Assembly: GCF_011769525.1 (NCBI RefSeq)
Contig: NZ_CP050440.1
Span: 62,001-126,000 of the forward strand
DNA: 64,000 bases
Reading direction: 5' to 3'
Origin: Tolypothrix sp. PCC 7910
Lineage (GTDB): Bacteria; Cyanobacteriota; Cyanobacteriia; Cyanobacteriales; Nostocaceae
Below are positions 5,290-22,491 of this stretch, in pieces (the first letter of the stretch is position 1; each line of letters opens with the position of its first letter). The notes under the pieces are model-generated. The model saw nothing but the letters and a program-made list of their open reading frames with translations, was not told the DNA's origin and did not search any database. Position numbers and translations under genes: made by a program.

Positions 5290-6474
5290 ATGGTCATATT
5301 AGGTAATGTGCTTAATGAATTTAAAAATTGTACACAATTACAGTACAACGGCAAGTTAAATCTTCAAAGCGCAAAAAATCACAAATGGAGCTTTTATTAT
5401 CGTCTAGGGCGAATAATTTGGGCATCAGGAGGGATTCATCCCTTTCGCCGTTGGCGAAGACAAATGGTGCAAAACTGCCCGGAAATTGATGTAGATAAGA
5501 TACGTTTAAGTTCTCAAGACGTAGCAATTGAATACTGGGATTATCGGCTTTTAGAAATTTTATATAAAAAACAAAAAATTCAAAGAGAGCAATTTCATAA
5601 TATTGTAGAACATACAATAGCAGAATTATTTTTTGATTTAGCTCAGGAGTCTGATTTTTCAGATTTAACTTGCAATCGTAGCCAAGAATTGATTGTAGAA
5701 ATGCCCATGAGCTTTACCAGCGCAGATGTCTCTTTAAAACAGATGCATGATTCGTGGAAGATTTGGTCAGAAGCAGGTTTAGCAAATTTATATCCTGATT
5801 TAGCACCTATAATTCGTAAGCCAGAACAACTCCAGCAATTAGTAAGTCCAGCTGTTTACAACAACTTTGTAAACTTGATCAATGGGAAATATACACTGCG
5901 AGATTTAGCGATAAGAATGAAGCAGAATCCATTACCCGTTGCTCGCTCATTACTGCCTTATATACTTAAAGGTATTATTGAACTTATAGAAGTACCTGAC
6001 TTACCATTAACAGTTGTTGAAGTTCAGAATAATTCTACGCCAATAACGCCTCAAAAGCCCAATGCACCTTTGGTAGCTTGTGTAGATGATAGCCCCCAAG
6101 TTGGGAAACTTTTAGAAGAAATTATCACTTCGCATGGGCTAAGATTTATCAAAATCCATGATGCTGTACAAGCTTTACCAATTCTCATTCAAAATAAACC
6201 AGACTTAATTTTCTTAGATTTAATGATGCCTATTGCTAGTGGTTACGAAATCTGCACTCAGTTGCGGCGAATTTCTGCCTTTGCTCACACACCAATAATT
6301 ATCCTCACAGGTAATGATGGACTTTTAGATAGAGTTCGCGCTAAAGTGGTTGGCTCTACAGATTTTCTTACTAAACCTGTGGCCAGTGATAAAGTAATGG
6401 GTATTGTGCGTAAGTATTTACCTATCCAAGCTTCCTCAACCAAGAAAAACACCTCTCACGTTAATAGTATGTAA
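5290..6474 (+). CDS. pixG: PatA-type response regulator (PATAN + REC), phototaxis cluster
   Basis: 394 residues. The N-terminal half is a PATAN domain (signature GRIIWASGGIHPFRRWRRQ at about residues 38-56) as in PatA/PixG. The C-terminal receiver (about 260-385) has the acidic pair in CVDDS, phosphoacceptor Asp in FLDLMMP and Lys in LTKP. In cyanobacteria PATAN-REC proteins head chemotaxis-like operons and control type IV pilus polarity or hormogonium behaviour. Here CheY, CheW, photoreceptor-MCP and CheA follow in the same order as pixG-H-I-J-L (ptx in Nostoc punctiforme). The ATG at 5290 has no Shine-Dalgarno and lies directly behind TTAGTCAAA boxes. The 540-base gap to the next gene suggests a second promoter. 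The hmp cluster has the same gene order; the bilin GAF domains of the MCP favour pix/ptx. Confidence 0.85.
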   Translation: MVILGNVLNEFKNCTQLQYNGKLNLQSAKNHKWSFYYRLGRIIWASGGIHPFRRWRRQMVQNCPEIDVDKIRLSSQDVAIEYWDYRLLEILYKKQKIQREQFHNIVEHTIAELFFDLAQESDFSDLTCNRSQELIVEMPMSFTSADVSLKQMHDSWKIWSEAGLANLYPDLAPIIRKPEQLQQLVSPAVYNNFVNLINGKYTLRDLAIRMKQNPLPVARSLLPYILKGIIELIEVPDLPLTVVEVQNNSTPITPQKPNAPLVACVDDSPQVGKLLEEIITSHGLRFIKIHDAVQALPILIQNKPDLIFLDLMMPIASGYEICTQLRRISAFAHTPIIILTGNDGLLDRVRAKVVGSTDFLTKPVASDKVMGIVRKYLPIQASSTKKNTSHVNSM

Positions 6475-7015
6475 TGCAAGTATGACTATTAAGTAAGTAC
6501 CTGTTTTTACTGGCTTATTAGACTGCGTATAACAAAAAAATTATTAAACCCAAATTTTTCACCCAAAACAATTAGCTAACTCTTTAGCTGAAAGATTTTC
6601 CAGCTTTTTTAAACTTATATTAAACTCTGATAATTCTCCAAGAGGGTGATGTTTTCAGGACTTGATGACTTGATAAACGAATTTATAGATTATCCCAGTT
6701 CCAGCAATATTTTCAGATCTGACACGGGTAAAATTTGATGTGCCCCAAAAAATCGGTTACTTCCCAAGCCAGAGTTTAAGTCTGACAGCCTGCAATATCA
6801 TGTATGAATCGATTCAAAATTAACCTATCAATCTAGCAAATTTTTCTGAAAAGCTAGTTGAATATAACAATCAAATATATCTTCTTTATCAAAATTAATG
6901 CTTAGTTTTGGTCTTTAAGTGCTTTTTCTGAGGCTAATGTATGAAAAATGCATTAGCTTGATAAAAGCCAAATTTTTTGTTGAAAATCACAGTAGAACTT
7001 TAATAGGAAATTAAT
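6475..7015. other. Intergenic region between pixG and pixH
   Basis: About 540 AT-rich bases inside an otherwise tightly packed cluster. No coding sequence or hairpin stands out; a separate promoter for pixHIJL is likely. Confidence 0.5.
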
Positions 7016-7381
7016 ATGAATACTGTTTTAGTTGTTGAAGATGGTTTGACTGACATGGAAATCATCAGTAGTTACTTGCAACAGGCAGGATATTATGTCA
7101 TGAGTGCCAAAACTAGTGAAGAAGCTCAATCCCAAATAGACAGAACAAAGCCTGATGTCATATTCCTTGATGTAATTTTGCCTGGTAAAAGTGGTTATGA
7201 AATTTGTAGAGAACTAAAAACTAATCCTCAGACTAGTAACATACCCGTAGTTTTTTGTTCAACTAAAAATAATGATGTGGATAAAGTCTGGGGTAATATG
7301 CTCGGTGCCGAAGCTTACTTATCAAAACCTGTTGATCGCAAAGAATTAGTAGAAACTTTACAGCGATTAATTAATCATTAG
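7016..7381 (+). CDS. pixH: CheY-type response regulator
   Basis: 121 residues, a single receiver domain with no output domain. It shows the acidic pocket VVEDG, the phosphoacceptor Asp in VIFLDVILPGKSGYE, Ser/Thr in FCSTK and the conserved Lys in LSKPV. Proteins of this type (PixH/PilH) receive phosphate from the cluster's CheA and act on pilus motors or as a phosphate sink. The ATG is preceded by TAGGAAATTAAT, a reasonable ribosome binding site. It sits between the PATAN regulator and CheW, 62 bases before the latter. Confidence 0.88.
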   Translation: MNTVLVVEDGLTDMEIISSYLQQAGYYVMSAKTSEEAQSQIDRTKPDVIFLDVILPGKSGYEICRELKTNPQTSNIPVVFCSTKNNDVDKVWGNMLGAEAYLSKPVDRKELVETLQRLINH

Positions 7382-7443
7382 GCTGAGGAATTGAGGAATA
7401 AGTAAACAGACAATAAATATCACCTGACAAAGGAAAAATTATT

Positions 7444-7917
7444 TTGGAAACCAAACAAAAATTTTTAAGTTTTAATTTGGGAGCCAAGGATATAGGCGTA
7501 ATTCAACTACAGCATATCACTGAAGTTTTACAAATATCATTGGCAGAAATCTGCGGTGTGCCTCAAATGCCTAATTGTGTCTTGGGTATTTACAACTGGC
7601 GTGGCGAAATGCTTTGGTTAGTTGATTTAGAGGAGATGCTAGGGTATTCTTCACTGTTACAAGGCTCCCATTTAGTTGCCAAAATGATGGCGATTGTTAT
7701 AGAAAATGAGGGTAAATCTTTAGGTTTATTGGTACGTCAATTGACCGATATTGAGTGGCTAAATACTCAAGAAATGAAAACACCCTCTGCGGAATTGTTT
7801 TCGCCAGCACTATCACCATTTTTACAAGGCTACTTTATTAGTCCTAATGAAGAGATGATGTTTACCTTAGATGCTTTAACCATTATCCAAGCTCCTATAT
7901 GGGGTAATCATAATTAA
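7444..7917 (+). CDS. pixI: CheW-like coupling protein
   Basis: 157 residues, one CheW domain: ITEVLQISLAEICGVPQMPNCVLGIYNWRGEMLWLVDLEEMLG and a second half ending DALTIIQAPIW. CheW couples the photoreceptor-MCP to CheA. The start is a TTG at 7444 (METKQKFLSFNLG) supported by AAAGGA about 10 bases upstream; no suitable ATG precedes the conserved region. It is in line with the downstream MCP, about 100 bases away. Confidence 0.88.
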   Translation: METKQKFLSFNLGAKDIGVIQLQHITEVLQISLAEICGVPQMPNCVLGIYNWRGEMLWLVDLEEMLGYSSLLQGSHLVAKMMAIVIENEGKSLGLLVRQLTDIEWLNTQEMKTPSAELFSPALSPFLQGYFISPNEEMMFTLDALTIIQAPIWGNHN

Positions 7918-8021
7918 AATTTGGTAATTGATCAGAGAAATTATTCTTTCGATTACCAGATTTTTATTTTCAATTGGAATCTAGAAAATTATTAGTAATT
8001 AAACTTAGTGAGGGGTGTAAA

Positions 8022-11000
8022 ATGAAATATTATGGCAGTGCCCAAACCAATAGTAATGCTGTTAATAAAAAAGAAGCCTTAGAAAATCAAAATGGTAGTC
8101 CGGAAATAGCAGGTATTGCTAGCGATGAATTGGATTTATTAAATGCAGTATCTCAGGAGTTCAAAAGTTGGCGACAGCAACTACAAAGTATTTCTAGCCA
8201 ATTACGTCAAGCGCCAGATCTGGATACACTACTGAAAGTTACTGTTACACAAGTTAGGGAAAAAATTGTTAGCGATCGCGCCTTGATTTATCAGTTTACT
8301 ACCTCTGAGAATGGTACTGTTTTAGAGGAATCGATCAACAGAGGTTGGACACCCACTCTCGGTGAAAATTTGCCAGGTATTACCTTTGGTTTATATGAGA
8401 GTCAAGAGTATTTAGAACCTGTAGTTATTAATGATATTACACAGCTTCAAGTTACACCCTATCAACAACAACTTTTAGAAAAATTTCAAATCCAAGCTTG
8501 TTTAAGCTTACCAATTGTAGTTAACGAGCGCGTGTGGGGCTTGCTAGTAGTAAACCATTGTGCTGCTGCTAGACAATGGCAAGAAGTAGAAATTACCTTA
8601 CTGTCTCAAGTTACTACAGAAATTGCCTACAGAATCCAAAGCTTTACTTCTGAAAAACAAAGCCAGCAGGAAATATTAGCACAGAAATCTATCGTTAAAG
8701 TTATTGATAGAATTCTCAATCTATCATCTATAGATAAAATATTCCAGGCAACTACTCACGAAATCCGTCAATTCCTCCGCTGCGATCGCGTTGCGGTATA
8801 TCGCTTCCGTCCTGATTGGAGTGGTGAGTTTGTATCTGAATCTGTAGGGAATGCTTGGGTAAAACTAGTATCTCCAAATATGAATACAATTTGGGAAGAT
8901 ACTTACTTACAAGAAACCCAAGGTGGACGTTATGCCAAAGGCGAAAGTTTAGCTGTTAGTGATATTTATCAAGCCGATCACTCTCAATGTCATGTTGAGA
9001 TTTTAGAACAGTTTGAAATGAAAGCCTATATTATAGTTCCAGTTTTATCGGGACAGAAATTATGGGGTTTATTAGCAGCTTATCAAAATTCTGGGCCACG
9101 TAATTGGCAACCTTGGGAAGTTAATTTCCTCACAGAAATGGGCTTACAATTTGGTGTGGCGATTTCCCAAGCCGAATATCTCGAACAAGTGCAAGCTAAA
9201 AATGAGCAGCTGACACAAATAGTTGAACAAGAAAAAACCTTAACTAAAATTGCCAACCGCATTCGCCAAACATTTGATACAGAAAGTATCTTTAAAATTA
9301 CTACCCAAGAAGTTCGCCAATCTCTGCGATGCGATCGCGTTGCAGTTTATCGTTTTAATGCTAACTGGGGTGGTGAGTTTATCGCAGAATCAGTAGGTCA
9401 TGGTTGGGTAAAACTGGTAGGGCCGGATTTAAATACTGTCTGGGAAGATACCTATTTGCAAGAAACTCAAGGTGGTAGATATGCTAAAGGCGAAAATTTG
9501 CTGGTGAATGACATTCACCAAGCTGGATTTTCGGCTTGTCATTTAGAAATTTTAGAGCAGTTTGAAGTTAAATCCTGCATGATAGTTCCTATTTTCTTAG
9601 GAGAAAAATTATGGGGATTATTAGGAGCTTATCAAAACTCAGAAACTCGTGATTGGAAAAACTGGGAGGTTAACTTTTTAGCACAAATTGGGTTGCAATT
9701 TAGTTTAGCTAAATCACAAATCGAATATTTCGATCAAGTACGAATTAAATCTGAAAAATTAGCTCAGATCGCCGAACAAGAAAAAGCCTTAACAAAACTA
9801 GTGGATCGGATTCGCCAATCTTTAGATGTGGAAGAAATCTTCAAAACATCTACACAAGATATCCGACAATTACTCAAATGCGATCGCGCCTGTATCTATC
9901 GCTTTAACCCCGACTGGAGTGGCGAATTTGTTGCTGAGTCAGTCAGTCATGGTTGGGTAAAATTGGTAGGGCCTGAGAAAAAAACTGTTTGGAAAGATAC
10001 CCAAGTACAAGAGTGCGCCCAAATTGGTAAATATCAAAAAGGTGACTGTTTTGCTACAAATGATATCTACAATGCCGGACATTCTGTTTGCCATATTGAA
10101 GCATTAGAGAAATTTGAAGTCAGAGCTTATGTAACTGTACCAATATTCTTTGGCGAAAAACTGTGGGGATTACTAGCAGTTTATCAAAACACTGGGCCTC
10201 GTGACTGGGAAGAATCGGAAATGAACTTGCTATCAAGGACTTCCGATCAGTTAGGTTTAGCATTACAACAAACTGAGTATTTGCAACAAGTACAAGCACA
10301 GTCGGCACAATTAGCTGAAGCAGCCGCCAGAGAAAAAGCCGCTAAAGAGTTATTACAACAGCGTTCTATTCAACTTCTTACAGCACTCAGGCCGGCCCTC
10401 AATGGTAACTTGACAGTACGCGCACCTATTACAGAAGATGAGCTAGGTACAATTGCTGATGCTTACAATAATACCCTGCAAGCACTCCGGCAGATTGTTA
10501 TTCAGGTACAAGCAGCAGCTCAACAAGTTGCTCAAACTTCCGATACTAGCGAAGCATCATTAGTTGGACTTACGCAATTAGCCAACCAACAATCCCAAGA
10601 AATGGCCGCAGCCTTGAATGATATTCAAAAAATGGTTGACTCAACAAAAGCTGTGGTATCCAACGCTGAATTGGTACAAGTTGCAGTCAAACAAGCTAAC
10701 CAAACTGTCGAGTCTGGTGATGCGGCGATGAACCTGACTGTACAAGCTATCCAAGGGATTCGTGAAACTGTTGCCCAAACTAGTAAAAAGATTAAACGTC
10801 TCAGCGAATCTTCGCAAAAAATCTCGAAAGTGGTGAACTTAATTAGTAATTTTGCCACCCAAACAAACGTTCTAGCTTTGAACGCTGCTATTGAAGCCAC
10901 CCGTGCAGGTGAATATGGCAAAGGTTTTGCAGTGGTAGCTGATGAAGTTCGTTCTTTATCTCGCCAGTCAGCCGCAGCCACTATCGAAATTGAAAAGTTA

Positions 11001-11339
11001 GTGCAAGAGATTCAAGCAGAAACCGGCGAAGTAGCAGTGGCGATGGAAACAGGTATTCAACAAGTTGTAGAAGGTACAAATCTTGTTAATGATGCCCGAC
11101 ACAATTTGAACGCTATTGTGAGTGCAACGGCTGAAATTAGCCAATTACTCCAACGTATTACTGAAGCTACTCAAAAACAAATGTCTCAATCTGTGACGGT
11201 AACTTCAAGTATGAAAGATGTCGCAGAAATTTCCCACAAAACTGTTGCAGAATCTCATGAAATCGCAGCTGTTTTCCAACAATTATCGGGAATGGCGAAA
11301 GAACTATTAGCAACTGCAAGTAAGTTTAAGGTTAATTAA
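8022..11339 (+). CDS. pixJ: Cyanobacteriochrome methyl-accepting phototaxis protein (4 GAF + HAMP-like + MA)
   Basis: 1105 residues from the ATG at 8022, chosen over an in-frame TTG at 7974 because GAGGGG lies just upstream. Order: four GAF domains (about 50-215, 225-390, 405-575, 590-760), a HAMP-like linker (about 800-850) and a methyl-accepting signalling domain with the conserved tip [23 protein letters not shown]2, GAF3 and GAF4 each carry the bilin-attachment Cys-His pair (C323-H324, C506-H507, C690-H691). GAF2 and GAF3 carry the [14 protein letters not shown] block typical of red/green cyanobacteriochromes such as AnPixJ GAF2; GAF4 has a diverged version. GAF1 lacks the cysteine and is probably structural. 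No transmembrane helix is visible, so it is likely cytoplasmic or held at the pole by partners. It should signal light to CheA through CheW. Confidence 0.9.
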
Positions 11340-11417: not shown

Positions 11418-14400
11418 ATGACTACAGATAATGATATTCGCGAACAGGGATACATCTATTTTTTAGCTGAAGCCCCTGAATTATTACAAATAATTGAACA
11501 AGAAATATATACATTAGCGGAAGATTTTACTATAGCTAAAGTCCATGAATTAATGCGGGCAACTCATACAATTAAAGGAGGAGCCGCGAACGTTGGGCTA
11601 GAGGGTATTCAAACTATTGCCCATTCTTTAGAAGATGTATTTAATGCTTTATATAATCCCAATGTTGTTATTGATTCACAATTACAAACACTAATATTAC
11701 AAGCTTATGAATGCTTAAGTTTAGCGCTCACAGCAGAACTAACAGGTTGTGATATCAATAGTGAAGAACTGCTGCAGCGAGCTGCTTCTGTATTTGTACA
11801 TTTACAAGAAAAACTAGGTGATGCTTTTGGTGCTGAGGCGCATATTCCTACTTCTGAAGAATTAGGATTTGATATTGTTCAGTCTATCTTTGAGGTAGGA
11901 GTACAACAACGCATAGAAAGTATTAATGAGGCTTTAAATAGTAATATTGATAGTGCAGAATTTACTAATTTGCTGCGAGAGCAAGCTGAGATATTTATTG
12001 GTTTAGCAGAATCTTTAAATTTACCTGGTTTTGGCGCGATCGCCCAAACAATTTTGACAGCACTGACAGCTAACCCCCATCAAGTTTATCAAATTGGTGA
12101 AGCTGCTCTCGCTAATCTACAGCAGGCACAAGCAGCTGTATTGGCTGGCGATCGCACTTCTGGCGGAGAACCTAGTTTAGCTTTACAAAATTTAGCTACA
12201 GTAGTTACAGATGAGTTAAATACAATTACAAATATATCTATTCCACACAACGATTTACAAAGTCAAATTAAGCAGTTATATAAATTTTTAATTATATCTG
12301 GTAATCTCAAAAAACAGCCCCTCACCCCAGCCCAAGCTAAGTTTTATATTCAAGTTGTTCGCTATATTTTTGGCTGGTTTAATCATTATCGAGAAATTCC
12401 TCAAGAAGACTTGAGTTTGTCTTTATTAGTAGCATCGGAAGATGAAGACTTACTTACTTATATTGAACATTGGTTAAGTCAATTTTTAGATTTTATCCAA
12501 GAGGCAGAAGATAGCCAGAGCCTTCGCCTTTATCGCCAAGGAGTGATATTCTCTATTATTCTCGCTGTCCTGAGATTTTACTATACGGAACAATCAGTGA
12601 ATGCTGATAGTTCTATCATCCCAACATTGCAACAGCAAATTGGTAAATTAGCTCAGGCATATAAAAAATATCCTCCTGTCACCGCCCAAGAAAAAAATTG
12701 GCTTGATAGTCCTAAGCTACAACAACTATTAGTATTTAAAGAAATATCTTCGCAGCCAGCCATTACAGAAGCTGATAACTTACTAGAAAAAATTTGGGGA
12801 GGAGAGGTTAATTTAAATTCTACCTATGAAATTGTCGAGACTACAGAAAATACAGAAACGCCGAAAATTTCCCAAACTCCTCCGGAACAGGTAACAGTTA
12901 CTTCCATAGCTGTGCAGGAACCAGCAGTTATAGATATTTCTAGTTCTGCTATTGATATTCATCAAGAAATAGAAGATAAAATTTCCCATTCTTCTCAGAA
13001 GAATTCGCGGCATCATGCTTTTGTGCGAGTTAATACAGAAGGATTACAACGCCTCAATTACTTGGCTGGAGAATTATTAATTAAGCAAAAACAGCGGATA
13101 TTACAAGACGAACAAGTTAAAGAAATTATTGAGCAATTAGTACAGCGGCTTAACAGACAACAAAGTATTTTAAGCCAACTAGGTGATTTACCTTTACAGA
13201 TGCAGAGTGCTGCCTTACAGCATAGAGAAAATTTTGCACCTGTAAAATTTGATGCTTTAGAAATGGATGTATATACAGAATTTCAGATGACGTTGCATGA
13301 GGCCATAGAAGAAACCCTGCAACTACAAGAAATTACTGAATCTTTAGATTTATTACTAACGCAAGCTAATCAACTGAGTGAGAAAAAGCAAAGATTAACG
13401 CTGAATATTATCGATAACTTGGTAGAAGCCAGGATGTCGCCGTTAGGCAATATCATGAATCGATTCCCCCAAATGGTGAAAAAAATGGGGAATGTTTATG
13501 CCAAATTAGTAGATTTTAAAGTCAGTGGGACTGATGTACTAGTAGATAAAGCGATCGCAGAAAAACTATACGATCCACTATTACATTTGGTACGTAATGC
13601 ATTTGATCACGGTATTGAAACAACACAAGTTCGCCAATCTCTGGGTAAACCAGAACAAGCTATCATTGAAATTTCTGCCTATCATCAAGGTAGCCAAACT
13701 GTAATTGAAGTTAGGGATGATGGTCAAGGTATAAATTTAGAGAGAATTCGCCAAAAAGCTATTGAGTTAAATCTATTAACTGATGTTTATCACCCAACTG
13801 AATCAGAAATTCTCGATTTGATGTTTTCACCGGGATTTTCTACGGCTGAACAGGTGAGTGAAATTTCTGGGCGTGGTATGGGTTTAGATATTGTGCGATC
13901 GCAATTACATGCGCTCAATGGCTCAATCTCGGTGAAATCATTTCCTAACCAAGGCACAAAATTTATACTTAAAGTTCCTTTTTCTATGACTACAGATAAA
14001 TTAATGCTGGTGCAAGCAGACGGTGTTTTTTACGCCTTGCTGTTAGATAATCTGGAAAAAATCATAATTCCTTCAGAGCAGCAAATCAAAGAATTTGATG
14101 GCAAAAAAGTACTGTACTACAATACAGATCAAGAGCAACGCATGGTAAGCCTCAGCCGAATTTCTGAGTTAATGTATTATCATGGAGCGCTACTCAATAA
14201 TGTTAATCTTAACAATACCCAAACTCCTTATGACACAGGAATTACCCAGCAACCTGTGTTGTTACTGCGGCGAAATCAAGAAATGTTTGGCTTAGAAGTT
14301 GACCAAATTATTGGTGAACAAGAGCTAGTAATTAGACCTTTAGGAAATGCGATCGCTCCACCAAAATATATTTATGGTTGTAGTAGTTTAGCTAACGGTA

Positions 14401-15023
14401 CTCTCATCTTAGTGATTGATCCCACACTGTTGCTTGAGTCTTATGAAATGCAAGCTACCCTAGAGAGTAGCATCTCATCAACCGCTTATTTAGCAAATAA
14501 AGCAGCTTTAAGCTTATCCAGTGTAAACTCTAACTCTACACCCCTATTAGCTGCTTCTCCTGTTAGCAATACAACACCAAACCAGGTTAGTCAGGCTACA
14601 TTAACTAATCCCAAGTCATCGGCTGTGCTTTTGGTGGTAGATGATGCTATTAGCCTCAGACAAACTATTTCTTTAACATTGCAAAAATCTGGCTATCAAG
14701 TATTACAGGCACAAAATGGTGTGGAAGCTTTAGAACAATTGCAAAGACATCCAGAAATTAAAGTGGTAATTTCTGACTTAGAAATGCCACGTATGAATGG
14801 GTTTGAGCTGTTATCTAATGTTCGCCAAACCTCAAATTTAGCAGATTTGCCAATAGTAATTCTGACTTCACGCAGTGCGGAAAAACATCGCCAGCTAGCT
14901 CAGGCTTTAGGCGCGACAGCTTACTTAACTAAACCCTATTTGGAAGAAACTCTAATTTCTTTAGTTGAAGATTTAAGTAGCAAAAGCCAGGATAAGTCTA
15001 ATAATTTAATCATGAGTAAGTAA
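11418..15023 (+). CDS. pixL: CheA-type hybrid histidine kinase with C-terminal receiver
   Basis: 1201 residues. HPt domain at about 5-110 with phospho-His H50 in RATHTIKGGAANVG; a long poorly conserved middle (about 120-540); a dimerisation segment near 580-690; the kinase ATP-binding domain (about 690-870) with N-box LVRNAFDHGIE, VRDDGQGIN and GRGMGLDIV; a CheW-like regulatory domain (about 870-1020); a linker; and a receiver (about 1075-1195) with DD, SDLEMP and LTKPY. This is the PixL/PilL/HmpE layout. It should autophosphorylate under control of the photoreceptor-MCP and pass phosphate to the PATAN and CheY regulators. All catalytic boxes are intact. Confidence 0.93.
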   Translation: MTTDNDIREQGYIYFLAEAPELLQIIEQEIYTLAEDFTIAKVHELMRATHTIKGGAANVGLEGIQTIAHSLEDVFNALYNPNVVIDSQLQTLILQAYECLSLALTAELTGCDINSEELLQRAASVFVHLQEKLGDAFGAEAHIPTSEELGFDIVQSIFEVGVQQRIESINEALNSNIDSAEFTNLLREQAEIFIGLAESLNLPGFGAIAQTILTALTANPHQVYQIGEAALANLQQAQAAVLAGDRTSGGEPSLALQNLATVVTDELNTITNISIPHNDLQSQIKQLYKFLIISGNLKKQPLTPAQAKFYIQVVRYIFGWFNHYREIPQEDLSLSLLVASEDEDLLTYIEHWLSQFLDFIQEAEDSQSLRLYRQGVIFSIILAVLRFYYTEQSVNADSSIIPTLQQQIGKLAQAYKKYPPVTAQEKNWLDSPKLQQLLVFKEISSQPAITEADNLLEKIWGGEVNLNSTYEIVETTENTETPKISQTPPEQVTVTSIAVQEPAVIDISSSAIDIHQEIEDKISHSSQKNSRHHAFVRVNTEGLQRLNYLAGELLIKQKQRILQDEQVKEIIEQLVQRLNRQQSILSQLGDLPLQMQSAALQHRENFAPVKFDALEMDVYTEFQMTLHEAIEETLQLQEITESLDLLLTQANQLSEKKQRLTLNIIDNLVEARMSPLGNIMNRFPQMVKKMGNVYAKLVDFKVSGTDVLVDKAIAEKLYDPLLHLVRNAFDHGIETTQVRQSLGKPEQAIIEISAYHQGSQTVIEVRDDGQGINLERIRQKAIELNLLTDVYHPTESEILDLMFSPGFSTAEQVSEISGRGMGLDIVRSQLHALNGSISVKSFPNQGTKFILKVPFSMTTDKLMLVQADGVFYALLLDNLEKIIIPSEQQIKEFDGKKVLYYNTDQEQRMVSLSRISELMYYHGALLNNVNLNNTQTPYDTGITQQPVLLLRRNQEMFGLEVDQIIGEQELVIRPLGNAIAPPKYIYGCSSLANGTLILVIDPTLLLESYEMQATLESSISSTAYLANKAALSLSSVNSNSTPLLAASPVSNTTPNQVSQATLTNPKSSAVLLVVDDAISLRQTISLTLQKSGYQVLQAQNGVEALEQLQRHPEIKVVISDLEMPRMNGFELLSNVRQTSNLADLPIVILTSRSAEKHRQLAQALGATAYLTKPYLEETLISLVEDLSSKSQDKSNNLIMSK

Positions 15024-15491
15024 TGGTTAATATTTAGTTCCAAGTTGGCGCTTAATTTCTGAACCGTACTGGTATAAGCAATACCTGTAGTATATTAATG
15101 ATGAGTAGGGACGCGCTGGTGTGCGTCCCTACTCATGTATTTTTCGCCTTCTCTTTTCAACCTGGTATAAATAACTAGGAGCCTTAAATCATTAGTAGAA
15201 AATAAAGTACATTTTGCCTGTTCCTAGTTCCCTGCCTAATCGAGTAATTTTACAATTCCTCAACGGTAGGCTAGATGGTAATTTGAGTTTTCACAGAGCT
15301 ATTGCAGTGAGAAGTCAATAACTGTTAAGTAACAAAAACCTATGGAGCTTTTTGATAGATGATTAATCATATAACTCATTAGTTTCTCAGTGAGGATGGT
15401 ATTGATTGATGAGAGCAACCGTAGGTACGTCAGGAACATCTGGTTAGTGATTGACGCTGCGCTGTACTAGTATTTTTCAGGAGGAAGACAA
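15024..15491. other. Intergenic region between pixL and hybrid kinase gene
   Basis: About 470 bases without a gene. It holds the perfect hairpin at 15101-15136 and the leader of the next gene, whose AGGAGG ribosome binding site is at about 15479-15484. A separate promoter for the hybrid kinase is likely. Confidence 0.6.
15101..15136 (+). terminator. Perfect 14-bp hairpin after pixL (terminator or dispersed palindrome)
   Basis: ATGAGTAGGGACGC (15101-15114) pairs perfectly with 15123-15136 around an 8-base loop, followed by GTATTTTTCGCC. It may end pixL transcription, but similar GTAGGG-based palindromes elsewhere (40288-40351) suggest a dispersed element. Confidence 0.55.
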
Positions 15492-18400
15492 GTGGTGTCC
15501 CAGGTGCCAGAGAGAGTTGATGGAGATTTTCCACAGCAACCTGTAATTTATGCCAGTTCAGAGGCAGGAATGGTCTTTCACCTAGCTGATGGTACGATTC
15601 AAGCTTGTAATGCTGCTACTGAAAAAATTTTAGGATTTACTTTACAGCAGATACAAGGTTGCACCTCTTTTGATCGCCTCTGGCAAACTATTCACGAAGA
15701 CGGATCGCCATTTGACGGGGAAACTCATCCAGCAAAAGTGGCATTGCAAACGGCTCAACCAGTTTTTGGCGTTGTGATGGGTATTTATCACCCCAGCGGT
15801 GAGCTAATTTGGATTAAAATTGATGCCCAGCCTTTGTTTCAGGCAAATAATCCCCATCCTTGGGCTGTGGTTACTACTTTTTCTGATATTACCGCACTGA
15901 AGCGATCGCAAAATCAACCAGCTGCTGTATTAGCAATACCAGCACAACAGACGCAACATACTATTTTGATCGTGGAAGATTGCGCGGCAGATAGAGTAAT
16001 TTATCAGCGTTATCTCCGGCGAGACTCGGAGCAAAATTACAGAATTTTAGAAGCAGAAACTGGCGAAGAAGCTTTAGAAATTTGTCAACGTTACCAGCCT
16101 GATGTGGTGTTGTTGGACTACCGACTCCCAGATTTTGAAGGTGTGGAATTTTTAGAAACCCTGAAAAATCAAAGCAATGGGCACTCACCACCAGTAATTG
16201 TAGTTACCGGACAAGGTAACGAAGCGATCGCCGTGCAAATTCTCAAAGCTGGGGCTGAAGATTATCTGATTAAAGGTCGGATCACAGCAGATGATTTACA
16301 ATTTACCGTGGGCTGCGCGATTAACAAAGCACAGTTACGCATCAGATTACAACAAAGTGAAGTCAGACTGCATTTAGCTCTAGAAGCATCTCGTCAGGGA
16401 ATTTGGGAATGGAATATTCAGACGGGGAAAGTTGTTTGGTCTGAGCATTTAGAGCGTTTATATGGTATCACTCCTGGTAGTTTTGAGGGAACTTATGAGG
16501 CTTGGGAAAGGCGCATCCATCCTGATGATCGCAATACAGTAGTTGAGATTCTCAACCGTGCATTGGCTATAAGTAGCGACTACCAAGTAGAATACCGAAT
16601 CCTACTTCCCGATGGGCGTGTGCGGTGGTTGGGTTGTTGGGGGCGAGTTTTTTATCAAGAAGCTGGTAAACCCCTACAGATAGCGGGAACAGCGCAAGAT
16701 ATTAGCGATCGCAAACAAGTAGAGACGGAACGACAGCAGCAATTTGAGCGAGAACGCTTAGTTGCCCAAATTACCCAGCAAATTCATCAATCCTTGAACT
16801 TGAATGACATTCTACACACCACAGCGCATCTCGCCAGGCAAGTACTAGACTGCGATCGCGTGCTGATTTTCCGCATGAATGCAGACTCATCCGGAACAGT
16901 GGTCTCAGAATCAGTAGCTGCGGGGTGGACGGCGATTTTGGCATCAACTATTGCCGATCCCTGCTTTGGTCGCAGCTATATTCATCTCTACCAGCAAGGA
17001 CGAGTGCTGGCGATCGCAGATATTTATTCCGCAGGTTTTCAAGAGTGCCATATCAATCTACTGGCTCAGTTTCAAGTCCGGGCCAATTTGGTGGTGCCGA
17101 TTTTGCAAGGTGAGCATTTATGGGGATTGTTAATTGCTCATCACTGTGCTGCACCTCGCTCTTGGCAAGCATCCGAGATGGAATTACTTCAGCAATTAGC
17201 CAGACAAGTGGCGATCGCTATTCAGCAAGCTGTGTTGTATCAACAAGCGCAGACAGAACTTGCTGACCGCAGACGGGCAGAATTGGCGTTGCGGCAAAGC
17301 GAAGAACGCTATCGGTATTTGGCAGAATTAATCCCGCAATTGGTGTGGACAGCCAACTCGGAGGGAGCGCTACTCGATGTTAATCAACGCTGGTCAGATT
17401 TTACAGGTTTCACACTGGCACAAGCAAAAATTCACGGCTGGCCAGGCATTACCCATCCTGACGATGTACCAATGATGAGTGAGCAATGGGCATTGGCGCA
17501 ACAAGATGGCGGTCGTTATCAAGCAGAAGGTAGGATTCGCCGCGCCGATGGCGTATATCGTTGGCATTTACACCAAGCTGTACCCTTAAAAAATGAACAG
17601 GGTCAAGTGATTAAATGGTTTGGAACGGCGACGGATATTGACGATCAAAAACAACTGGAACAAGAACGTGCCAAAGCCCTAACCCATGAGAAATTCGCCA
17701 GGGAAGAAGCCGAACGCGCCAACCGCATTAAAGATGAATTTTTAGCGGTATTGTCCCATGAATTGCGATCGCCCTTAAATCCGATTTTGGGCTGGGTACA
17801 ATTACTACAAGGGCGCAAAATGGATGAAGCGAGGACAGCCCAAGCCTTAGCGACAATCGAGCGCAATGCGAAATTACAAGCCCAACTGATTGAAGATTTA
17901 CTCGATATTTCCCGAATTATGCGGGGTAAGCTGACACTAAAAGCGGCTTCTGTGAGTTTAGCCTTTGTGATTACCTCCGCCTTAGAAACTGTGCGCTTGG
18001 CGGCTGAAGCCAAATCAATTCAAATTGCAGTCAGTTTAGATCCAGAAGTCAGCAAGGTTTCTGGTGATGGGGCGCGATTACAGCAAGCAGTGTGGAACCT
18101 GCTTTCTAACGCCGTCAAATTTACACCCATTGGCGGACGAGTAGAAGTTAAACTCACACAAGTTAACTCCCAAGCTCAAATTCAAGTGATTGATACAGGT
18201 AAAGGCATTAATCCGGAGTTTTTGCCCTATGTCTTCGAGTATTTTCGCCAAGAAGATGGTTCTACGACCCGTCAGTTTGGGGGATTGGGGTTAGGATTAG
18301 CGATCGCGCGGCAAATTGTGGAAATGCATGGCGGTACAATTTGGGCAGATAGCTCAGGTGAAGGCGAAGGTACTAGCTTTAGTATTCAGCTACCATTGTT

Positions 18401-18851
18401 GAGCGAAGAAGATAACTGCGAACCAGTAGAGAAATCTTATGCTTCACCCCCGCCAGAATTACCCCTTGCTGGCATTCGCACCTTAGTTGTGGATGATAAT
18501 GCAGATACGCGAGAGTTGCTAGTGTTCCTCTTACAACAAAATGGTGCCATTGTCAGAGCAATGGCATCAGCAACCACAGCTTTACAAGAATTAGAGCAAT
18601 TCCAACCTGATATTCTCCTCAGTGATATTGGAATGCCTGAGATAGACGGTTATACGTTCATCCGTCATATCCGCAATCTGCAAGCCAAACAACAAAAGCC
18701 GCTAATTCCAGCCATTGCTTTAACAGCCTATGCGGGTGAAACTGATAAAGAACAAGCAGTCAACGCCGGATTTCAGCGTCATATTGCCAAGCCAATTGAT
18801 CCCAATGGCGTAATTGCGATCATGCTTGAGTTAGTCGGGCAAAGAAAATGA
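15492..18851 (+). CDS. Hybrid histidine kinase with DXCF-type cyanobacteriochrome GAF
   Basis: 1119 residues, GTG start at 15492 with a strong AGGAGG seven bases upstream. Order: PAS (about 20-140), receiver (about 155-275, Asp209 in LLDYRLP), PAS (about 295-415), GAF (about 435-590), PAS (about 605-725), HisKA (H756 in LSHELRSPLNP), HATPase (about 830-975) and C-terminal receiver (about 1000-1115). The GAF has the bilin-binding pair C519-H520 and the second-cysteine motif DPCF (D489-F492, C491), as in DXCF cyanobacteriochromes, which usually sense blue/violet against green or related colours. No membrane segment. It follows the pix cluster on the same strand and may tune phototaxis or gene expression, but its output partner is not visible. 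Confidence 0.9.
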   Translation: MVSQVPERVDGDFPQQPVIYASSEAGMVFHLADGTIQACNAATEKILGFTLQQIQGCTSFDRLWQTIHEDGSPFDGETHPAKVALQTAQPVFGVVMGIYHPSGELIWIKIDAQPLFQANNPHPWAVVTTFSDITALKRSQNQPAAVLAIPAQQTQHTILIVEDCAADRVIYQRYLRRDSEQNYRILEAETGEEALEICQRYQPDVVLLDYRLPDFEGVEFLETLKNQSNGHSPPVIVVTGQGNEAIAVQILKAGAEDYLIKGRITADDLQFTVGCAINKAQLRIRLQQSEVRLHLALEASRQGIWEWNIQTGKVVWSEHLERLYGITPGSFEGTYEAWERRIHPDDRNTVVEILNRALAISSDYQVEYRILLPDGRVRWLGCWGRVFYQEAGKPLQIAGTAQDISDRKQVETERQQQFERERLVAQITQQIHQSLNLNDILHTTAHLARQVLDCDRVLIFRMNADSSGTVVSESVAAGWTAILASTIADPCFGRSYIHLYQQGRVLAIADIYSAGFQECHINLLAQFQVRANLVVPILQGEHLWGLLIAHHCAAPRSWQASEMELLQQLARQVAIAIQQAVLYQQAQTELADRRRAELALRQSEERYRYLAELIPQLVWTANSEGALLDVNQRWSDFTGFTLAQAKIHGWPGITHPDDVPMMSEQWALAQQDGGRYQAEGRIRRADGVYRWHLHQAVPLKNEQGQVIKWFGTATDIDDQKQLEQERAKALTHEKFAREEAERANRIKDEFLAVLSHELRSPLNPILGWVQLLQGRKMDEARTAQALATIERNAKLQAQLIEDLLDISRIMRGKLTLKAASVSLAFVITSALETVRLAAEAKSIQIAVSLDPEVSKVSGDGARLQQAVWNLLSNAVKFTPIGGRVEVKLTQVNSQAQIQVIDTGKGINPEFLPYVFEYFRQEDGSTTRQFGGLGLGLAIARQIVEMHGGTIWADSSGEGEGTSFSIQLPLLSEEDNCEPVEKSYASPPPELPLAGIRTLVVDDNADTRELLVFLLQQNGAIVRAMASATTALQELEQFQPDILLSDIGMPEIDGYTFIRHIRNLQAKQQKPLIPAIALTAYAGETDKEQAVNAGFQRHIAKPIDPNGVIAIMLELVGQRK

Positions 18852-18863
18852 TCGGGTCAAAAC

Positions 18864-19781
18864 TCAACGCTTTGGTGCAGGTTCACCAAATTTAATTAAA
18901 AGTGCGATCGCCATACTCACCAGCAAAATTAATGTCATACTCAAAGCTGAACCGAAGCCCCAATTTTGGGTTGCGCCGAGAAACTGGTTATAAACTAATC
19001 TTGCTGCCGTCATACTAGAAGCACCGCCTAGTAATTCTGGGTTAATAAAATCTCCTAATCCGGTGATGAAAACTAACATTGTACCAGCTGTAATTCCTGG
19101 CAAAATTTGTGGTACTGTAACTTTCCAAAATACCTGCCGAGGATTTGCTCCTAAATCTGCTGCTGCTTCTAATAAGCGGATATCTAATTTTTCTAAAGAA
19201 GCATATAAAATTAACACCATATAAGGCAATAAACTATAACTCATCCCTATCAATACAGCAGGAATTTGGTTAAGTACCTCTAAAGCTGGTAAATGAAATA
19301 TTTTTAATAAACTATTTAATAAACCTGTAGGACGCAGAATTGTAATCCAAGCATAGGAACGGAGTAAAGAAGAAGTCCACAACGGTAAAATAAAGGTTAA
19401 TAATAAGAGATTGCGCCAGCGTTTTGGGGCAATTTGAGCAATCCAATAGGCTACTGGCAAGCTGAATATTAAACAAATAATTGTAGTACTAGCTGCTAAA
19501 ATTACTGAACGGATAATTACATGCAAATAAAGAGGGTCGAGTATTCTCAGATAGTTTTGCAATCCGCTGGGATTAACTAAATCTCCAGGTCGGATATTTG
19601 GCACTAAACTCAACTCTAAAATGATTAATGTTGGTAATACTAATAAAAGAATTAACCAAATACCAGCAGGTGCCAACAATACTAAAGGTTGGAGCCAACT
19701 AAAATTTGGATGATGCACTTTTGGCTTTTGTTGCTCAGACAGCATTTGATTAGACACAATAGATATTGAAAGAAAAATCAA
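18864..19781 (-). CDS. potB: Polyamine-type ABC transporter permease (PotB-like)
   Basis: 305 residues with about six transmembrane helices and the permease EAA motif (LEAAADLGANPRQVFWKVTVPQILPG). It should form half of the membrane channel of a spermidine/putrescine-type importer. The conserved part begins near the second Met (MLSEQQKPKVHHP), so the start may be 12 codons downstream. It lies six bases after potD, in line with potD and potA, and is convergent with the hybrid kinase gene (12 bases between stops). The usual partner permease potC is not here but at 57.2 kb. Confidence 0.88.
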   Translation of the reverse strand: MIFLSISIVSNQMLSEQQKPKVHHPNFSWLQPLVLLAPAGIWLILLLVLPTLIILELSLVPNIRPGDLVNPSGLQNYLRILDPLYLHVIIRSVILAASTTIICLIFSLPVAYWIAQIAPKRWRNLLLLTFILPLWTSSLLRSYAWITILRPTGLLNSLLKIFHLPALEVLNQIPAVLIGMSYSLLPYMVLILYASLEKLDIRLLEAAADLGANPRQVFWKVTVPQILPGITAGTMLVFITGLGDFINPELLGGASSMTAARLVYNQFLGATQNWGFGSALSMTLILLVSMAIALLIKFGEPAPKR

Positions 19782-19787
19782 AAAATT

Positions 19788-20873
19788 TTAACTACTAGTT
19801 AACTGAGTCCAATAACGTTCATAAACTTCTTCAAAGTCCCCTAAAGGCGTAATGCGTTCGCATTTCTCTAAAATTGATTCTGGAGGAAATAAAGTAGTAT
19901 TTTGTTGTTGTTTTACAGGTAACTGCTCAAATCCTGAACTATTAGGAGTAGAAATATTTAGATGTTGACTCATTTGAGCGGCTACCTCTGGCTGTAAAAT
20001 AAAATTAATCCAAGCATAAGCACCATCAGGATTAGGAGCGACTTTAGGAATTACAATTGTATCAGTCCATAGCGAAGAACCACTGCGAGGAATTACATAC
20101 TTTAATTTGGGATTTTCTTTAGTGACTCGCAGTGCATCTGCGGAATAACACATTGCTAACGCCAAATCTCCTGCTAGAATTTGATTTTGCCAAGCTTCAG
20201 TGTCAAAAGCAGTAATTGCAGGTTTCAGTGCTTTCAATTTTTCATAAGCTGCTTTAATTTGGCTCTCATCTTTGGAATTGTATGAATAGCCTAGCATCCG
20301 CAAAACTGCACCCATCACCTCACGCACATCATTCAGCAACGTCATACGTTTTTGCAATTTATCTTGATTTTGCCAAAGGTATTCCCAATCCTCTGGTGGA
20401 TCTTTAATAATTTCAGAATTATAAACTAAGCCAGTTGTACCCCAATTAAAAGGAATACTGTAGCGATTATTTTGGTCATAACTAGGATTTTGAAACCGCG
20501 GAAATAAATTTTCTAAGCCAATTAAGCGCTGATGATCTATCTCTGTTAGTAGCTTTTTATCTACCATCTTTTGTACCATGTAATCTGATGGATAGATAAT
20601 GCTGTAAGCGCCACCACCTCCCGCTTGCAATTTAGCTAGCATGACATCATTAGAATCATAAAAGTCAGCTAGTACTTTCATGCCTGTTTGGGCACTAAAA
20701 GTTTTTAGTAATTGGCTATCAGTATATTGCGTCCAAGTATATAAATATAATTGGTCACGTTGACCAGAAGTTTTAGCATTAGCGCGGACATCAGCTAGCC
20801 GCCAGCCACATCCAGTTAAAGATAAGCTAGAAAATGCTGCTATTGATTGGATAAATTTGCGTCTGGTTGTCAT
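19788..20873 (-). CDS. potD: Polyamine-type ABC transporter substrate-binding protein (PotD-like)
   Basis: About 361 residues from the ATG at 20871-20873 (MTTRRKFIQSIAAFSSLSLTGCGW). That N-terminus is a twin-arginine signal with a lipobox (LTGC), so the product is probably an exported lipoprotein. An upstream ATG at 20894 would add MTNDKHQ, but those codons are simply heptad repeat sequence, so the shorter start is preferred. The mature part matches PotD/PotF proteins: LYLYTWTQYTDSQLLKTFSAQTGMKV, YSIIYPSDYMVQKM, FNWGTTGLVYN, ALAMCYSADA. It binds the polyamine-like substrate outside the membrane and delivers it to PotB/PotC. Substrate specificity cannot be read from sequence. Confidence 0.88.
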   Translation of the reverse strand: MTTRRKFIQSIAAFSSLSLTGCGWRLADVRANAKTSGQRDQLYLYTWTQYTDSQLLKTFSAQTGMKVLADFYDSNDVMLAKLQAGGGGAYSIIYPSDYMVQKMVDKKLLTEIDHQRLIGLENLFPRFQNPSYDQNNRYSIPFNWGTTGLVYNSEIIKDPPEDWEYLWQNQDKLQKRMTLLNDVREVMGAVLRMLGYSYNSKDESQIKAAYEKLKALKPAITAFDTEAWQNQILAGDLALAMCYSADALRVTKENPKLKYVIPRSGSSLWTDTIVIPKVAPNPDGAYAWINFILQPEVAAQMSQHLNISTPNSSGFEQLPVKQQQNTTLFPPESILEKCERITPLGDFEEVYERYWTQLTSS

Positions 20874-20875
20874 TT

Positions 20876-20913
20876 GGTGTTTGTCATTTGTCATTTGTCA
20901 TTGGTCATTTGTT
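20876..20913. repeat. TTGTCAT heptad repeats, left arm flanking the four-helix gene
   Basis: About five TTGTCAT/TTGGTCAT units on the plus strand. They are the reverse complement of the ATGACAA units at 21327-21362, so together the tracts form an imperfect inverted repeat around the four-helix-bundle gene. Confidence 0.8.
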
Positions 20914-21278
20914 TTTGGTATATTACCAATTGAGTTGAGGTAGTAATTTAGTTTCGAGGCTAATTCATTCAGAATTATTTGAATTGAGCTTATCTGTTCG
21001 CTACTTAAGAGATTTCGCATATAAGCTCGTCTTAACCAATGTTGGGTTTCATTTAAAGAGCCTCTAGCTATCTTGATAAAACGTTTATTGTCTTGAAAAC
21101 TACCTCTTCCTGAACCTTCTGCTATATTTGCTCCAATACTATCTGCTGAACGCACAATTTGTTTACCAACTGTCTCTTTGTCGAATAAATCCCATTCGTC
21201 AACTATTTTCCAGATGTCATCTGCTAATCTTTCTGATAATTGATAAACCTGTAAATCTTGGAAACGCTTTGCTGTCAT
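20898..21278 (-). CDS. Four-helix-bundle protein (S23 / 23S rRNA intervening-sequence family)
   Basis: 126 residues. Signature: FQDLQVYQLSERLADDIWKI, VRSADSIGANIAEGSGR and FIKIARGSLNETQHWLRRA, matching the small four-helix-bundle family first seen inside 23S rRNA intervening sequences but common as free-standing genes in cyanobacteria. The molecular role is unknown; nucleic-acid binding has been suggested for the family. It sits between potA and potD on the same strand, where a transporter operon would normally be continuous, and is bounded by inverted heptad repeats, which suggests a later insertion. It may be co-transcribed with the pot genes. Confidence 0.88.
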   Translation of the reverse strand: MTAKRFQDLQVYQLSERLADDIWKIVDEWDLFDKETVGKQIVRSADSIGANIAEGSGRGSFQDNKRFIKIARGSLNETQHWLRRAYMRNLLSSEQISSIQIILNELASKLNYYLNSIGNIPKTNDQ

Positions 21279-21326
21279 TACTCAAATTTCAATTTATGGA
21301 GATTAATTTCTATGTCATCAGCCAAG

Positions 21327-21362
21327 AACAAATGACAAATGACAAATGACAAATGACAAATA
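21327..21362. repeat. ATGACAA heptad repeats, right arm flanking the four-helix gene
   Basis: Four to five head-to-tail ATGACAA units ending two bases before the potA stop codon; inverse of the tract at 20876-20913. Confidence 0.85.
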
Positions 21363-21363
21363 A

Positions 21364-22491
21364 CTATTCCCTAATAGCCAAACAATCACTTTCTTCCCAC
21401 CAAGCATATATAGGTGTATTGGGATCGGGTAAGCTACCAAAAGTATTGGGTTGTAAAACATTGATACTAATACCGTTAATTAATTCCACAACATAATTAA
21501 CGTGAGTACCTAAATACATGACGTTGATTAGTCGTCCTTCAAAGCAGTTATGGAGTAAATTTGGTGGATAAAGTGATAACTGAATTTTTTCGGGGCGCAC
21601 ACAGACGACTACTGTTTGTGATATGTCTGTAGGCGTTTCTTCATGACGAGCAACAACAATTGTTAGTCCAGTTTTAGTTTCAACTTGGACATTAGTTGCA
21701 TCTAGCGCCGTAATTTCACCACTGAATAAATTAGTATCACCAATAAAATCAGCCACAAAAGTAGTGCGGGGAAATTCGTAAATTTGGCTGGGGGTACCAA
21801 CTTGCTCTATTTTCCCTTGATTGATCACAGCAATGCGATCGCTCAAAGAAAGCGCTTCTTCTTGATCGTGGGTGACCATGATAAAGGTCAAGCGGAGTTC
21901 TTGGTGTAAATTTAATAACTCAACCTGCATTTCCTTACGCAGCTTTAAATCTAATGCTCCCAAGGGTTCATCTAACAACACCACGGATGGACGGTTGACT
22001 AAAGCCCTAGCTAAAGCTACTCTTTGCTGTTGACCACCAGAAAGTTGATTAGGAAAGCGCGATCGCAAACTTTCCATTTTCACTAGTTTTAAAGCTTCTT
22101 TGACTCGATGATCGATGTCTGACTTGCGGAGTTTTTTCAATCGCAGTCCAAAAGCAATGTTATCCCACACATTCAGGTGATTGAACAATGCGTAACTTTG
22201 AAATACTGTATTGACAGGTCGGCGGTAAGGCGGGACATTAGTCATAGGCTGACCCTGAATCAGTACCTTACCGGCATCCGCTGTTTCAAACCCAGCAATC
22301 AAACGTAATATAGTTGTTTTTCCACAACCAGAAGGCCCAAGGATACTAAAAAATTCTCCTTGTCTGACTTCCAAATCTACGCCATTGACTGCTGGTTCCT
22401 GGTGAAAAAACTTGAATACGTTACGCAGCTCAACATCAAGCGGCTGCAAAGCCATCATTTCCCTCTGATTCTGCGTCACAGTTTGAGCCAT
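21364..22491 (-). CDS. potA: Polyamine-type ABC transporter ATP-binding protein (PotA-like)
   Basis: 375 residues. N-terminal ATPase with Walker [10 protein letters not shown]-loop FQSYALF, signature [15 protein letters not shown], Walker [13 protein letters not shown] and H-loop [15 protein letters not shown]-terminal TOBE-type regulatory domain follows from about residue 270 ([23 protein letters not shown]). It energises import by the PotB/PotC channel. It is the first gene of the minus-strand potA-(four-helix)-potD-potB series and is divergent from the PBP2 gene across a 211-base gap that should hold both promoters. Confidence 0.92.

Follow-up and report, generated by a model that had tools for sequence, protein, structure and literature searches.

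In Synechocystis, the dual-linked cyanobacteriochrome (CBCR) kinase UirS influences phototaxis alongside PixJ1, perhaps via expression, and in Nostoc punctiforme the receptor PtxD, which covers six colours, is needed for the phototaxis of hormogonia (both from excerpts of PMC5812497). Cells of Thermosynechococcus head for green light and turn back on the addition of blue, via the cyanobacteriochrome proteins SesA/B/C (excerpt of PMC9090330). Colour-antagonistic phototaxis via cyanobacteriochromes is hence already published. CBCR GAF domains with a DXCF motif typically bind phycoviolobilin (PVB) and are blue/green (PMC11284453), and members tuned from blue to green, teal, yellow or orange are described (PMC5240096). 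Here we analyse a stretch of 64,000 nucleotides of Tolypothrix sp. PCC 7910 (NZ_CP050440.1, positions 62,001 to 126,000; the window), in which a gene for a hybrid histidine kinase with a GAF domain of this type adjoins a phototaxis (che) gene cluster. The kinase itself is ordinary for its class, and literature searches found no published account of it or of the gene arrangement. We propose that it is probably a soluble, light-controlled hybrid kinase of the DXCF class that senses blue and green, and that, if it affects phototaxis at all, it would most likely do so by an indirect route like that of UirS rather than by direct wiring to the neighbouring CheA and CheY.

The kinase gene is an intact open reading frame (ORF) on the forward strand (15492-18851), with a GTG start after AGGAGG and no internal stop, and encodes a protein with the domain order PAS-REC-PAS-GAF-PAS-HisKA-HATPase-REC. 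Pfam places the second and third PAS domains at residues 314-401 and 613-720 (other limits in Table 1), and the N-terminal PAS is a weak match, obtained when residues 1-157 were scanned separately. The motifs of a hybrid histidine kinase are complete, comprising H756, the N-box, G1, G2, D209, D1045 and both receiver lysines. The highest 19-residue Kyte-Doolittle mean is 1.44 and, by this crude test, there is no membrane-type hydrophobic stretch. Among five orthologues the synonymous divergence (dS) is 0.13-0.41 and dN/dS 0.12-0.17 (Nei-Gojobori), and the gene is under purifying selection and hence functional. Close copies on plasmids were also considered and dropped: 22 plasmid records match the kinase at E 1e-100, all at below 60% identity and none covering 80% of the protein.

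The GAF domain carries C491 within DPCF, a motif that begins at D489, and the pair C519-H520, as the initial annotation had stated, and the sequence, Pfam and the alignment with the DXCF protein TePixJ (3VV4, E 2.5e-37) all bear this out. In that alignment the stretch from DPCF to Cys-His is gapless and of identical spacing, and C491, C519 and H520 are invariant across 11 aligned sensor regions selected for their resemblance to the kinase. The domain scores best among the 123 GAF matches in its genome. Its AlphaFold model, built on a 54-row alignment, has a predicted local distance difference test (pLDDT) score of 90.3, and Foldseek superposes it on TePixJ 4GLQ with a root-mean-square deviation of 1.1 over 141 columns and on the dual-sensor kinase 6OB8 with 2.0 over 167 columns (an excerpt of PMC11284453 identifies 4GLQ as TePixJg and 3W2Z as AnPixJg2). 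The gapless alignment, the structural match and the invariant residues show that the motif did not arise as a random hit. The domain order, the model and Foldseek indicate a stand-alone CBCR fold without a PHY domain. With DXCF at the TePixJ position, the Cys-His pair and a stand-alone GAF, the kinase can be assigned from its sequence to the DXCF class of cyanobacteriochromes. Covalent bilin attachment, isomerisation of phycocyanobilin (PCB) to PVB and a blue/green photocycle are predicted from the family, and a supply of PCB is plausible, as the genome encodes one bilin reductase, assigned at family level to the PcyA family PF05996.

If the kinase follows its family, C519 would bind PCB, which would then be isomerised to PVB. 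In the dark state C491 would add to C10 of the bilin, giving a blue-absorbing form, and illumination would release C491 and leave a green-absorbing form, in line with the DXCF chemistry summarised in part of PMC11284453. The photoswitch would set autophosphorylation at H756 and transfer to D1045, from where the phosphoryl group may pass to an Hpt protein encoded elsewhere and on to a further regulator. The ratio of blue to green light would thereby be turned into an output that is not necessarily steering; phototaxis, if affected, would most likely be influenced along an indirect, UirS-like route that bypasses the neighbouring CheA and CheY.

A tentative alternative, possible if somewhat unlikely, is that the GAF domain is photoactive without being classically blue/green, for instance as a PCB-retaining or teal-type sensor, so that a two-channel picture would hold with other colours. 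The tuning range noted above allows for this, and so does the tree of GAF domains. That tree has 122 rows, covering 75 of the 80 named relative loci (at least 44% identity over at least 150 aligned residues), 30 of 48 own-genome matches, of which one is the window and the other 29 are paralogous loci, and each of the six family relatives; it was built quickly, with support from the SH-aLRT (Shimodaira-Hasegawa-like approximate likelihood ratio) test only. The five kinase orthologues form one clade (support 99) within its DXCF-rich part, separate from AnPixJ and NpR6012g4, and TePixJ falls in yet another group. The identical spacing shared with TePixJ and the PVB-binding, blue/green behaviour of typical members favour instead the blue/green assignment.

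It is unlikely, though still to be weighed, that the kinase is a two-component sensor which, like UirS, alters the expression or level of motility regulators (the che cluster, pili or hormogonium genes) in response to blue and green light and so biases phototaxis without steering it. The UirS/UirR/LsiR system of Synechocystis, as far as it is set out in excerpts of PMC5812497, offers a precedent. In both cases a dual-cysteine GAF sits on a kinase, and here the kinase adjoins motility-type genes. In Synechocystis the uirS gene is presumably linked to those for UirR and LsiR, whereas directly beside the Tolypothrix kinase lie cheA and convergent transporter genes, with neither a UirR-like transcription factor nor an LsiR-like regulator, and the genes scanned between 5290 and 26528 hold no transcription-factor domain. 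A PatA-type regulator does occur within the che cluster (5290-6474).

That the kinase is instead a true sixth che component, phosphorylating the CheY of the cluster, its PatA-type regulator or the receiver of CheA so that red/green and blue/green signals oppose each other in steering, is doubtful. The kinase sensor is found at E 1e-120 in five of the eight genomes of the genus and not in the other three (150 candidates scored per genome). In all four fetched carriers besides the window (G002, G003, G004 and G007) the gene lies beside cheA on the same strand, with the transporter genes on its other side, and REC-bearing proteins that could serve as partners are encoded nearby. However, 20 of the 24 fetched che loci besides the window have the MCP (methyl-accepting chemotaxis protein) and cheA but no kinase; these loci, three of them in the genus and 17 in members of other genera, were picked from MCP matches to span the genus and other genera and are not a random sample, and the remaining four are the carriers. 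At the 20 loci the transmitter half of the kinase gives no match at E 1e-15 and the sensor half matches only inside the MCP. All five cluster genes are present in 22 of the 24 loci (one with its first gene cut) and the other two begin inside the cluster; the kinase, present in 4 of the 24, is not conserved with the cluster.

At family level, 11 of 217 genomes reach E 1e-120 with the sensor, namely the same five at 88-100% identity and six at 47-53%, the match being limited to REC-PAS-GAF in five of these six. With the MCP as query, 153 of the 217 genomes attain E 1e-230, PtxD-type proteins included; as six (kinase sensor) and three (MCP) first-look candidates were scored per genome, divergent relatives may be missed. 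A che gene (E 1e-20) lies within the examined flanks of only two of the 80 named relative loci (L124 and L163), neither with an AnPixJ-type cluster, and 66 of the 80 have a DXCF GAF. In L124 and L163 the che genes lie on the other strand, with an MCP of a different type. On these searches, the MCP cluster is widespread and the kinase limited to a small group of related species. The five carriers form one clade in a CheA tree (100/100), and the simplest history is a single gain of the kinase on the carrier branch, between cheA and the transporter genes. A rough estimate of chance adjacency gives about 0.03 expected pairs (~16 non-MCP DXCF genes x 6 che places x 2 flanks / ~7300 genes, the gene number being guessed from genome size). 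The adjacency is thus mildly unexpected but looks like a single event that was then inherited.

The layout of the locus also speaks against a sixth component. The gap between cheA and the kinase is about 440-940 bases across the carriers (468 in the window, the others measured from match ends); the cluster genes between cheY and cheA, taken with their listed starts, are 56-78 bases apart, and ptxA and cheY 541. Behind cheA lies a terminator-like hairpin, which is aligned in G003 and G004 and not in G002 or G007, giving three of the five carriers with the window. The idea that it is a high-copy repeat was dropped, as the genome holds one exact match, exact copies alone being counted. The kinase leader is conserved in the five carriers (split by an insertion in G004) and has no other match in the eight genus genomes at E 0.001, which suggests that the kinase has a promoter of its own. 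The idea that the leader RNA folds so as to mask the ribosome-binding site was considered and rejected, since RNAalifold finds 0 of 37 pairs changed on both sides and the folding z of +1.5 is no better than shuffles; Rfam gives no match in the window at the gathering threshold. Together, the long gaps, the hairpin and the leader argue against co-transcription of the kinase with cheA, and with the kinase-free loci they led us to drop the idea of a six-gene operon. The values for cheA (dS 0.06-0.46, dN/dS 0.10-0.17, Nei-Gojobori) resemble those of the kinase, which indicates that the two were inherited together with the locus and neither shows nor excludes coupling.

Several observations weigh against the proposed blue/green kinase acting apart from the cluster. 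The nearest row of the GAF tree outside the five carriers, from Pegethrix, lacks D-x-C-F, so the second cysteine can change in this neighbourhood of the tree, which weakens the colour call; the colour of the photocycle is in any case not fixable from sequence. A scan of 14900-15600 for sigma-70 promoters found none, where 1.8 were expected by chance, so it is the conservation of the leader that suggests a promoter. Finally, kinase and cluster have stayed side by side while five species diverged (dS up to 0.41), so that a joint function is conceivable.

The genome has further colour inputs. D-x-C-F occurs in 18 of the 29 paralogous GAF loci examined, or 19 of 30 once the window is counted, which makes this kind of GAF common here; 13 CheW-domain matches lie at six places. 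Locus L212 is a complete PatA-type/CheY/CheW/MCP/CheA cluster whose MCP (6688-9513) has Cache and HAMP domains, one DPCF GAF, with Cys-Tyr replacing Cys-His, and an MCP domain. The MCP of L211 (8736-11714) has three GAFs, two of them DXCF, and adjoins a short CheA-like gene that gives no match to HATPase. With DXCF GAFs in these two che-associated MCPs, the kinase is probably not the sole blue/green-type input, and a blue/green-type steering input probably exists without it.

The seven-GAF receptor PtxD is present in G005 and G006, both kinase-free. With 61 candidates scored per genome, it was found neither in the five carriers (G000, G002, G003, G004 and G007) nor in G001; the best matches there are partial ones of 43-54%. 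The genus thus shows five members with the kinase only, two with PtxD only and one (G001) with neither. This complementary pattern is suggestive, yet it reflects one or two events and is a weak lead. That the five carriers, which like G001 lack PtxD, have rebuilt a two-protein multicolour steering system, in which a blue/green kinase joins the red/green MCP and biases the CheY or PatA-type regulator next to it, is very unlikely. Were the kinase to bias che output, the pair would offer a simple system of two genes in which to study how filaments balance two colours, replacing a seven-GAF receptor. After the cheA of the PtxD clusters of two relatives there are short ORFs that, by eye, look like the 23S_rRNA_IVP gene found among the transporter genes (L209, 14177-14554; L210, 14724-15116).

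Least probable, and scarcely credible, is that the kinase serves the convergent transporter system or is simply carried along without a role: its gene ends 12 bases from the nearest of these and sits between two units that co-occur without it, but the permease lies downstream of cheA in 15 of the 20 kinase-free loci (in some with other genes between, e.g. L085 and L086) and dN/dS points to a selected function.

The initial annotation had placed the kinase next to a red/green cluster, and this holds: the neighbouring MCP is AnPixJ-like with three red/green-type GAFs, and the arrangement recurs in five species, so that the six-gene synteny is not unique to the strain, although it was found in a single clade only. 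Of the two-channel colour locus, the physical pairing of a DXCF kinase with a red/green MCP stands and the functional coupling is unsupported. Coupling to the pix/che genes is made less likely by the kinase-free loci, the leader, the gaps, the lack of a response-regulator gene directly downstream and the other che-associated DXCF MCPs; adjacency does not imply joint function, and neighbourhood alone is poor evidence of coupling. Colour-opponent steering by kinase and cluster is possible with little specific support, and to call it undescribed was too strong in view of UirS and SesA/B/C as portrayed in excerpts of PMC5812497 and PMC9090330. The case does show that a CBCR kinase can land beside a phototaxis cluster in a single clade.

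Table 1. Features of the kinase gene and its surroundings (positions in the window)
Feature	Position	Strand	Basis
DXCF cyanobacteriochrome hybrid histidine kinase (predicted class), 1119 aa	15492..18851	+	ORF, translation, upstream sequence, Pfam, dN/dS
Internal receiver REC1 (aa 158-262), phospho-Asp D209	15963..16277	+	Pfam; motif position
GAF photosensory domain (aa 436-577)	16797..17222	+	Pfam; AlphaFold model; Foldseek
Second cysteine C491 of DPCF	16962..16964	+	Sequence; invariant in alignment
Canonical bilin cysteine C519 and H520	17046..17051	+	Sequence; invariant in alignment
HisKA (aa 747-810, H756) and HATPase_c (aa 858-969), N/G1/G2 boxes	17730..18398	+	Pfam; motifs
C-terminal receiver REC2, phospho-Asp D1045	18483..18851 (limits by eye)	+	Two Response_reg stretches; motif position
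Kinase leader, probable own promoter and ribosome-binding site	15310..15491	+	Conservation
Terminator-like hairpin after cheA, 16 pairs then GTATTTTT	15101..15136	+	Hairpin scan; 1 found, 0.3 expected from shuffles
Response regulator (ptxA-like), which we take to be of PatA/PixG type	5290..6474	+	Position and REC; DUF4388 match below cut-off
CheY-like response regulator	7016..7381	+	Pfam
CheW	7444..7917	+	Pfam
AnPixJ-like MCP, four GAFs, GAF2-4 with CH, no DXCF	7974..11339	+	Pfam, motifs, sequence match to 3W2Z
CheA with Hpt, HATPase, CheW and REC domains	11418..15023	+	Pfam
Convergent ABC transporter genes (permease, solute-binding protein, ATPase), with a 23S_rRNA_IVP gene among them	18864..22491	-	Domain scan

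Two of the MCP GAFs that carry Cys-His have WEDTYL and one has WKDTQV. GAF2 is closest to AnPixJg2 (3W2Z, E 2e-82). In GAF4 there are two extra cysteines between the WKD motif and the bilin Cys-His, at residues 665 and 676 (counted from nt 8022; gene part 8022-11336). Read by eye, the sequence of the convergent ABC transporter suggests a polyamine type; the gene of the 23S rRNA intervening-sequence type inside it lies at 20898-21278, and beyond it are tandem penicillin-binding transpeptidase genes (22703-24541 and 24711-26528), closely alike by eye.

Among described systems, UirS (PixA) of Synechocystis resembles the Tolypothrix kinase in being a histidine kinase that bears a dual-linked CBCR GAF, in a host with a CBCR-MCP phototaxis cluster, but it has membrane-spanning and ethylene-binding domains and acts through UirR and LsiR (excerpts of PMC5812497), whereas the kinase described here shows no membrane stretch, is of hybrid type with a pair of REC domains and is not flanked by a gene for such a regulator. 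TePixJ shares the GAF fold and the DPCF and Cys-His at identical spacing, yet its output is an MCP rather than a hybrid kinase and the two GAFs lie in separate parts of the tree. AnPixJg2 and NpR6012g4 are the counterparts of the neighbouring MCP, whose GAF2-4 cluster with them (support 97), and not of the kinase GAF, which does not group with them, has DPCF and lacks the red/green W-x-D motif. PtxD (NpF2164) of N. punctiforme belongs to the same type of che cluster and brings several colours into one pathway, but there the dual-Cys colours reside within the MCP itself (excerpts of PMC5812497). With SesA/B/C, which carry cyanobacteriochrome domains, the direction of movement reverses once blue is added to green (excerpt of PMC9090330); their output is cyclic di-GMP, whereas that of the Tolypothrix kinase would be phosphotransfer.

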